Shown piece by piece: positions 46,754 through 54,404 of a DNA stretch of 58,133 nt. Position numbers and translations under genes: made by a program. Location: NCBI GenBank assembly GCA_937958645.1, contig CALGNI010000013.1:1-58133 (forward strand), written 5' to 3'. The notes under the pieces were generated by a model. The model ran no database searches. It saw only the letters and a list, made by a program, of their open reading frames with translations, and had not been told where the DNA came from. This stretch comes from Candidatus Absconditabacterales bacterium (GTDB taxonomy: Bacteria > Patescibacteriota > Gracilibacteria > Absconditabacterales > Absconditicoccaceae). Position 1 is the stretch's first letter. Each line of letters begins with the position of its first letter.

Positions 46754-46885
46754 CGAAGCAAGCTTCTTGGTATCCTTGGTAGGAATTGTTTTTTATCTAT
46801 TACGAAGCAAGCTTCTTGGTATCCTTGGTAGGAATTGTTTTTTATCTATTACGAAGCAAGCTTCTGGTATTCTTTCTTCGAAATA
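46754..46885. repeat. 49-bp tandem repeat carrying the CGAAGC palindrome
   Basis: Units beginning at 46754, 46803 and 46852 (period 49) start CGAAGCAAGCTTC and run through TTGGTATCCTTGGTAGG; the third changes to GGTATTCTTTCTTCGAA. The palindrome is the family also found at 51117 and 53896. Confidence 0.9.
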
Positions 46886-46899
46886 ATCAGAGTCAGATT

Positions 46900-47277
46900 T
46901 TATGAATTTCTCAAGACTTGTTCTTGGAAGAGTCTTTCTTTTTGGAGTCATTTGCTCGCTTCTCGATCCTGTCATTCTTTGACACCATTCACTCTTTCTT
47001 CGTATGTTTCAAGGGTTCTTTCAATCACTGAGTAAACAGAATCGATATATCATTCTTTTTCTAAAGTATAGATCATATTACAAAAATCTCGCAAGACTCC
47101 TCACAAATCAGCCTCTAGCTTCACATTGTTATTGGCGCGAATCTGATCCTGTATACTAGACATGTCTAGTTGAAGATTGGTGAGGTAAGGAACATGAGTC
47201 GCTCGTGGAGCGTCTTTTTGGAGGCTGTAGTTGTATTTTTGTTCTACCAGATGGAAGATATGCGAGAATTGTTGCAT
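46900..47277 (-). CDS. MazG-like nucleotide pyrophosphohydrolase
   Basis: 125 residues, TAA stop. All-alpha protein whose centre KLEADLGGVLRDFCNMIY resembles the metal-binding E-x2-D helix of MazG-like enzymes; GVKEGQDREAS closes it. These remove pyrophosphate from non-canonical or excess nucleotides. The family call is moderate because the first EExxE motif is weak. The two glycines of LGG include a UGA codon. Confidence 0.6.
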
Positions 47278-47446
47278 AGGAATTCACAAAAATAAAAGAC
47301 CAAACACCTTAATCATACAGACTAGATACCTTGGTCATAGTGAAAAGAGTGATTCATGCAAAGTATTGCCTATTAGGACACGAAACAAAATTAGTGATCT
47401 TGACTTTTTGTATAAGTTTCTTATGTTGATTTTATCATAGCAAGAA

Positions 47447-47727
47447 GCGAGTCGATCCCATGAAGTTGCACTGTGTATATAGTAGAATAAACGGTTCGTG
47501 TTATCATACGCAACTGATTGGGAAAGACTTGTTTAAAAACAAAAAAAATTAAGGGTAAATCTTGGCGGATTTAGTTTGCGAGTCGATCCCGTGAGACACT
47601 GTACTGAGGAAAAACAGTGTTGAGCGGGAAAGACTTGTACTAAAGTAAAAGATATATTTGTAAGGATTTCCTCACAAATGCATAATATTTAAAAAAACCA
47701 CTGCGATTTGCAGGGGTCTTTTTTTTA
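47447..47727 (+). ncRNA. candidate structured RNA with two tandem domains and terminator
   Basis: Domain 1 (47447-47532) and domain 2 (47578-47640) share CGAGUC-GAU-CCC at the 5' side and GGG-AAA-GACUUG at the 3' side. In both, CGAGUC pairs with GACUUG, a GAU/AAA loop follows, then CCC(A/G) pairs with (U/C)GGG, changing together, then a UGA/GA element and a variable hairpin (AGUUGC/GCAACU or ACACUGU/ACAGUGU). A further hairpin (47656-47679, ATTTGTAAGGA / TCCTCACAAAT) and a terminator at 47697-47727 end the unit. The G-U pair in the first stem exists only on the plus strand, which sets the orientation. No known RNA family is recognised. Confidence 0.65.
47697..47727 (+). terminator. terminator of candidate RNA
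   Basis: ACCACTGC, loop GATTT, GCAGGGGT and a run of nine T. Confidence 0.8.
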
Positions 47728-47821
47728 CTTTCTTTTTTCTTCACCCCAGCCCGCTACTCTCAAGGGGCACAATGTCCCAACCGCTTCGCTAGGAGAGAGT
47801 ACGGTTTGTTCACCTAGGAAT

Positions 47822-47843: not shown

Positions 47844-49460
47844 CTACTCGATCTTCATTGGATAACTAAAGGGAACCTCCACAATCTTTACTCACGATTC
47901 ATTAATTATTTTTTGCATTTGCTGTTTAAAGTTCTTTGGATCATCTATGAAATATCCTTTAGCTCCAAATGCTTCTGCTAGTTTTACGAAATCTGGATTT
48001 TTTAGATCTAAGGCGAAATCTTTGTAGTCATGGTTGAGCTGTTTTCGTTTGATCATTCCATAAGCATTGTCATTTAGGACAATGATGGTAAGATCGTTTC
48101 CAAGTTTGACTGCGGTTTCTATGTCACCCAGGTTCATTACTAATCAACCATCACCTACTACAGCAACCACATGCTGATCAGGATGAAGCATCTTCGCCAT
48201 CATAGCAGAACTATAACCAGCACCCATTGTAGCTAATGCATTATCAAGCAGGAGCGTATTGGGTACATAACAAGGGTAGTTTCTTGCAAATCGCACCTTG
48301 TATAGACCATTATCCAGAGCAATGATATCATCATCAGCAAGTATTTCACGTAGCTCATAGATGAGTCTTCATGGCATCATGATTGGATGATCGTAGTGTT
48401 GTTTAGCATGAGTATGAACCAGAGCTTTTGCCTGATTTGCTAGCTCATAGGTCTTTTCAAAATCCCAGCTACTTGTATCAATGCTTGCTTCAGAAAGTTG
48501 TCGCATGGTGTTTCCGATGTCTCAGATTACCTGAAGACTTGGTTTATATAATTCATCAAATTCTGCCTCTGTGAAGCTAATATGAATCAATTCTGTCTTT
48601 CCATTTTCGATAATGTTCGTAGGTTTTTCGATGGTGTCATGACCTATCGCAAGAATAAGATCTGCTTGCTCAATAGCACTATGTAGGTGATCTCAAGAGG
48701 TAAGAGCTGCAGTTCCGATATATTGCGGATAACGTTCATCAATTACTCCTTTCCCCATCTGAGAAGTGAAAAATGGAAGATTATGTTGCTGAATAAAAGC
48801 CCCGAGATATTTAGTAATTCTTTTTCTATTGGCTCATGCTCAAACGAGAATCATAGGATTTTTTGCTGATTCAAGCTTCGCTATTATGCGAGCAATAGCT
48901 TTTTCATCAGCGATAGGTCTTCTTATTTTCTCAAATTCAATCGGAGCGAAGTGGTCATCAATCATTTCTCCAGCGATATCCTCGGGCAGTTCTAGATGAA
49001 CAGCTCATGGTTTTTCATCTTCAGCAGTAGTAAAAGCATGAGATAAAAGTGATGGAACTCTCGCGCCATCTACGATCACAGAAGAATATTTGGTAATCGG
49101 TTTCATCATCCCTACGACGTCAATGACTTGAAATTTACCTTGCTTAGAATGTTTGATGGGTTTTTGTCCCGTGATGACCAACACAGGCATTCATCAAAGC
49201 TGCGCGTAAGCAACCCCTGTCATCATGTTGGTAGCTCCAGGACCTAGAGTCGCAAGCGCAACTCCAGTTTTCCCTGTAAATCTTCCATACGTCGCAGCCA
49301 TAAACACGGCGGTTTGTTCATTTCTGGTGACGATAACCTCAATGCTTGAATTACTTAAAGATTCTAGTAAGTCTAGATTTTCTTCTCCAGGAACACCAAA
49401 GATATACTCAACTTGATGAGATTCTAGACATTTCACGAAGAGATCGGAAGTTTTTTGCAT
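47844..49460 (-). CDS. acetolactate synthase-like ThDP enzyme
   Basis: 538 residues, TAG stop. The three ThDP-enzyme domains are in order: N-terminal VTRNEQTAVFMAA with the catalytic Glu and LGPGATNMMTG, a central domain, and a C-terminal ThDP/Mg motif VVGDGGLVMNLGDIETA followed by IVLND. Length and motifs fit acetolactate synthase large subunits, closer to the catabolic AlsS type since no small-subunit gene lies nearby. It joins two pyruvates to acetolactate, possibly for redox or pH balance during fermentation. A TetR gene upstream is its likely regulator. Confidence 0.88.
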
Positions 49461-54001: not shown

Positions 54002-54374
54002 ATGAAAGATTTTAAACAATGGACTTTTTTGAAACAAGCTCTTGATAGATTATCCTAAGCAAAGACAGGTTTGGTATGTTCATTTGTGAGTAAATGTATG
54101 ATTTGAACAAGATGGAAAGGGTAATGATTATAAGAGACCAGTAATTATATTGAAGGTAGTATGAAGTATGTATGTGATTTTACCTATGACTACTACATGA
54201 AAAGATAGTGCATATTATTTCAGTCTTCCATATCATTATTTCAATAAGCCATCCTGGATTCTTCTTTCTCAAATTAGAGTTATTGATAGAAAGAGATTCA
54301 TTGAAAAGATATGATACATATCTCAAGATGATTTTAGTCTTGTAAAACAAAAACTTACAGAACTAATTCTGTAA
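54002..54374 (+). pseudogene. MazF/PemK-like toxin gene with +1 frameshift
   Basis: Starts MKDFKQWTFLKQALDR from ATG 54002, then reaches TAA at 54056. In the +1 frame the family sequence continues: YPKQRQVWYVHLGVNVGF, GFEQDGKGNDYKRPVIILK, LPMTTTGKDSAYYF, PSWILLSQIRVID, ending at TAA 54374 (about 124 residues in total). MazF/PemK toxins cleave mRNA. The frame change at TTATCCTAA could be a mutation, a sequencing error, or a programmed +1 shift. No antitoxin gene is evident next to it. Confidence 0.7.
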
Positions 54375-54384
54375 GTTTTTGTTT
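54346..54384 (+). terminator. terminator of toxin gene
   Basis: AAAAACTTACAG, loop AACTAATT, CTGTAAGTTTTTG, overlapping the toxin stop codon. Confidence 0.8.
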
Positions 54385-54386
54385 CT

Positions 54387-54404
54387 CTCCAACATATGTT
54401 GGAG
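54387..54404. other. 18-bp perfect palindrome
   Basis: CTCCAACATATGTTGGAG, perfectly symmetric, between the toxin terminator and the HD-domain gene end. It could be a protein-binding site. Confidence 0.5.

Follow-up and report, generated by a model that had tools for sequence, protein, structure and literature searches.

Glycine and guanidine-II riboswitches are tandem-aptamer classes, and RNAs of the CsrB/RsmZ type sequester proteins through repeated binding hairpins with a GGA apical loop. Here, we describe an RNA element that, like the tandem-aptamer riboswitches, carries the same structured domain twice in succession. Unlike those riboswitches, it has no downstream gene and no match to a riboswitch in Rfam. 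Like CsrB/RsmZ, it presents repeated hairpins in what would be a free-standing RNA and would offer several sites to one protein; however, what is repeated is a stem interrupted by internal purine loops rather than a GGA apical loop. The element also resembles stand-alone bacterial sRNAs with an intrinsic terminator, as it is intergenic, structured, without an ORF of its own, alone on its strand, and followed by a terminator-like end. It differs from them in lacking conservation in relatives and in being known from sequence alone. Non-coding RNAs of candidate-phylum bacteria with altered codes are hardly described, and our literature search found no paper on the topic. We give an even chance to the explanation that the locus encodes a species-restricted, stand-alone plus-strand RNA of ~290 nt with a duplicated, putative partner-binding module.

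Results

The host genome is a 92%-complete, 1.55-Mb draft (G000), and the window, the whole 58,133-nt stretch analysed, is one of its contigs (C13). UGA is read as glycine: conserved genes contain many in-frame TGA codons, ten of them in the acetolactate-synthase-like gene adjoining the RNA region. This region sits in a 456-nt gap bordered by two minus-strand genes, one for an uncharacterised small protein (46900-47388) and the other for a thiamine-pyrophosphate enzyme (47844-49460). Inspection of the ORFs in the window showed no plus-strand gene downstream of the RNA before 51521, as the plus-strand ORFs up to that point are antisense to minus-strand genes. An earlier note on this DNA had described the unit as lying alone, with no same-strand gene after it, and this description holds for both neighbours and for the sequence that follows.

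Other features of the window were also recorded. Immediately beyond the end of the small minus-strand gene, 46754-46884 is a tandem repeat of two identical 49-bp units plus an incomplete third; all of them contain CGAAGCAAGCTTC. At ~30 gene starts in the window, a Shine-Dalgarno-like sequence is almost absent, and many of them have a T-rich stretch ~15-20 nt upstream, a pattern that may point to leaderless mRNAs. We also asked whether a housekeeping RNA is missing from the genome by searching for the small bacterial SRP RNA. The Rfam model did not find it in the host's own 92%-complete assembly. We rejected SRP RNA as an identity for the two-domain RNA, whose structure is unlike that of SRP RNA.

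Two plus-strand hairpins, D1 (47445-47534) and D2 (47576-47640), have one architecture. From the outside inwards, each has an outer stem of 9 positions, then a 2x2 GA/AA loop, followed by a CCC/GGG stem that a tandem GA/GA loop separates from the inner stem. The module is a long hairpin broken by two purine loops of the tandem G-A type, which are spaced by six pairs. The 5' side of both copies contains GCGAGUCGAUCCC (47447-47459 in D1 and 47578-47590 in D2) and the 3' side GGGAAAGACUUG (47520-47531 and 47626-47637, respectively). These carry the strand pieces CGAGUC-GAU-CCC and GGG-AAA-GACUUG, which the earlier note had correctly assigned to both domains. The GA/AA and GA/GA loops are identical between D1 and D2, whereas the inner stems are not: AGUUGC/GCAACU in D1 and GACACUGU/ACAGUGUU in D2 are unrelated in sequence, yet both pair, as had been claimed. 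The internal loop previously read as UGA/GA is present but is better described as a tandem GA/GA 2x2 loop beside a U-U (D1) or U-G (D2) pair.

D1 consists of a 9-bp outer stem, the GA/AA loop, a second stem UCCCA/UGGGA, the U-U plus GA/GA element, the inner stem, and a 40-nt apical region. It folds at -32.6 kcal/mol (z = -5.4) and scores 70.3 bits against covariance model R1, which was built from D1 and D2 alone. In D2, the second stem is UCCCGU/GCGGGA and the inner stem is closed by an 11-nt apical loop; its fold reaches -34.0 kcal/mol over a 71-nt stretch (z = -7.5), with an R1 score of 85.3 bits. The A-rich linker between them (47535-47575, plus strand) contains a weak hairpin, UAAAUC/GAUUUA, that folds no better than chance (-5.7 kcal/mol, z = -0.6).

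The fold energies of D1 and D2 beat those of all shuffled sequences, and the whole stretch has a z of -5.8 against shuffled controls. D2 has the third-lowest GC-corrected energy among 11,614 sliding 70-nt segments covering both strands of the window. Only two segments have lower values, and both come from a single palindrome at 54341, one from each strand. This near-perfect palindrome (54341-54390, AAAACAAAAACTTACAGAA..TTCTGTAAGTTTTTGTTT) is the top fold of the window on either strand and is probably a bidirectional terminator.

We then aligned the two copies, shortening the D1 apical region for alignment only, to bring them into register. Between D1 and D2, 7 of 21 pairs changed on both sides and 11 are invariant; one changed on one side, and two have one unpaired cell. 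When the register was slid as a control, the double changes dropped to 0-1. The inner stem accounts for five of the seven, and the outer and second stems have one each, both clean: A-U to U-A in the outer stem (model columns 2-64) and A-U to G-C in the second (columns 16-50), the latter being the swap reported in the earlier note. The inner stem might have been replaced wholesale, and the seven double changes are therefore not seven independent events. The covariation comes from two copies only, since a homologue was found in no other genome. The structured element is real, orphan, ordinary in kind, and very likely an RNA.

Read on the plus strand, the stems have six G-U pairs and not one A-C pair; the earlier note had pointed to a G-U pair in the first stem as possible on this strand only. 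The whole stretch folds at -92.7 kcal/mol on the plus strand versus -77.9 kcal/mol on the minus strand. On the minus strand, the purine loops become U/C (pyrimidine) mismatches and the outer stem is reduced to 4 pairs, although D1 and D2 still fold better than shuffles there (z = -3.6 and -5.1). Because of the six wobbles, the lack of A-C pairs, and the 15 kcal/mol advantage in folding, the evidence favours the plus strand for D1 and D2.

The flanking signals are less specific. A plus-strand promoter-like sequence, TTGACT-16-TATGTT (47400-47427), lies ~20 nt upstream of D1 and matches the scanned consensus at 9/12 positions. The evidence for it is weak, since sites of this kind are not enriched in the region as a whole (11 versus 8.4 expected). 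The domains are followed by a third hairpin, AUUUGU..ACAAAU (47656-47679), and by a terminator-like hairpin, CCACUGC-GAUUU-GCAGGGG (47692-47726), as the earlier note had observed, but neither is specific to the plus strand. Hairpin 3 has an A-C mismatch under its loop on the plus strand and a G-U pair on the minus strand, and the terminator-like hairpin is followed by UCUUUUUUUU on the plus strand and by UUUUUUU on the minus strand. They fold at -25.4 kcal/mol on the minus strand versus -18.1 kcal/mol on the plus strand. Since minus-strand pairing is at least equal, they give no help in choosing a strand and are neutral or contrary evidence for the plus strand. They are either bidirectional, as is likely for the terminator-like hairpin, or part of the minus-strand gene upstream of both.

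A segment of the D2 apical loop, UGAGGAAA (47605-47612, plus strand), can form 8 Watson-Crick pairs with UUUCCUCA in hairpin 3 (47667-47674). A 7-pair Watson-Crick match occurs in 0.3% of shuffled loop pairs, a post hoc figure, uncorrected, for one of several loop pairs considered, and the two loops may form a kissing (tertiary) contact. We also considered whether UUUCCUC of hairpin 3 acts as an anti-Shine-Dalgarno sequence but dropped this idea because gene starts in the window have no Shine-Dalgarno-like sequences upstream.

No Rfam 15 family matched at its gathering score, and the best weak matches in D1 and D2 were at chance level. The earlier note had expected a family recurring in code-25 and CPR genomes and proposed a covariance search. 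With R1, this search recovered only D1 and D2 in the host's own assembly, no copies in four genus-mates, nothing in a 380-genome phylum sample, and nothing credible in 353 genomes of the class, where one match (E = 0.04 per genome) is expected by chance over so many genomes. These large searches combined stricter filters with a first look that homologues sharing little sequence may escape. Therefore, we made a loosened model, R2, in which stems were randomly varied and the four GA/AA letter pairs were kept. R2 found no credible copy in 40 relatives. Its one match (25.2 bits, in a member of the same genus, G001) was dismissed as chance, as it lies inside a long open frame resembling an isoleucyl-tRNA synthetase gene. 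A lack of further copies in related genomes is an outcome that the earlier note itself had named as refuting; on that ground the proposed family fails, but the structure itself stands.

At the DNA level, a blastn search with the region yielded only short A/T-rich or terminator-like matches in 147 relatives, and the matches in phages and plasmids were all short and A/T-rich. A DNA pattern that proved too loose gave at least 118 matches in genome contigs and 13 in viral contigs; these were attributed to chance given their unrelated phyla and weak model scores. Three stricter patterns had zero matches in viral contigs.

Orthologues of the flanking genes lie near each other in three genus-mates, and the RNA is absent both from the gap between them and from anywhere else in these genomes. 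The genus-mate assemblies are only 65-85% complete, but the sequence of the syntenic gap was inspected directly in all three. Its content differs: one genus-mate has a tRNA-like stretch there along with two tRNA genes, and another has an open frame. As far as the searched genomes show, the RNA appears restricted to the host species and would have been gained there or lost elsewhere.

The tRNA-like sequence in the gap of genus-mate G002 (L169, 649-729, minus strand) adjoins tRNA-Gln and tRNA-Phe; its anticodon loop, CUUCAAA, carries UCA, and its variable arm is a short hairpin. ARAGORN made no call, and Rfam tRNA-Sec matched weakly (25 bits versus a cut-off of 47). Possibly, this is an unusual or degenerate tRNA that reads UGA in a code-25 organism.

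Discussion

The strand and position of the element bear on two alternatives, both of which we consider unlikely. The hairpins could belong to the 5' UTR of the 46900-47388 gene and regulate it, as they lie upstream of it on the minus strand, where both domains still beat shuffles and hairpin 3 and the terminator are stronger. Such a leader would have to forgo all six wobble pairs, which are possible on the plus strand only, and would have pyrimidine mismatches in place of the purine loops and an outer stem of only 4 pairs; moreover, the three genus-mates with an orthologue of this gene have the element nowhere in their genomes. Alternatively, a duplicated aptamer-like domain followed by a terminator could be the relic of a tandem riboswitch-like or leader RNA whose downstream plus-strand gene was lost. 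In the style of a terminator switch, the constant GCGAGUCG can pair with CGAUUUGC of the terminator loop over 8 pairs (2 G-U). However, this pairing needs G-U and falls short of the D2 stem in strength, Rfam gives not even a weak riboswitch match, no plus-strand gene occurs before 51521, and D1 and D2 are intact rather than decayed.

A DNA-level element without RNA function, such as mobile-element hairpin repeats or a binding site, would be consistent with the variable gap among genus-mates, which resembles an insertion-prone site, and with the 49-bp repeats nearby. We regard it as very unlikely, as the whole assembly has two copies only, and wobbles and strand asymmetry are meaningless in DNA hairpins. 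Equally, the similarity could reflect a single stable hairpin that was duplicated recently, everything else being coincidence and no functional RNA being involved; no relative conserves the element, and only two copies can be compared. The inner stems, however, differ at nearly every pair and still pair while the outer sequence is unchanged, a pattern that drift without selection does not produce after a duplication, and the fold is among the strongest in 58 kb; this, too, is a highly improbable origin. Hammerhead, k-turn, and CRISPR-type readings, assessed by eye, were rejected because the core sequences or neighbouring genes that they require are missing.

Given the common architecture, strand-specific pairing, compensating changes, and absence of a downstream plus-strand gene that we observe, a free-standing RNA with two putative binding modules appears to be the most economical reading. 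Among the features of an independent sRNA, a structure stabler than chance and the absence of a same-strand gene downstream are found here; the promoter-like site does not exceed chance, and the terminator-like site works on both strands. The earlier interpretation stands as regards a duplicated, structured plus-strand domain with compensating changes, a terminator-like end, and a lone position, but not as regards a recurring family.

We propose that transcription would run on the plus strand over ~47435-47728, with the RNA ending at the terminator near 47692-47728. The constant part, namely the outer stem and the two purine loops, would be the most likely surface for a protein or other partner. 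With the module present twice, one RNA could hold two partner molecules or bind more tightly. The inner stems would act only as spacers, and for this reason their sequence would be free to change while remaining paired. Hairpin 3 may serve as a docking site for the apical loop of D2. That the element represents a new RNA class, confined to one species or a small code-25 group and using its two sets of paired tandem G-A loops as docking sites for one protein, is a doubtful extension of this proposal.

The absence of relatives limits the significance of the element. Internal duplication with compensating changes provides evidence for an RNA fold from a single genome in a case that allows no cross-species comparison. 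If it is expressed, the RNA would offer a simple system in which to ask what a repeated RNA module binds to.
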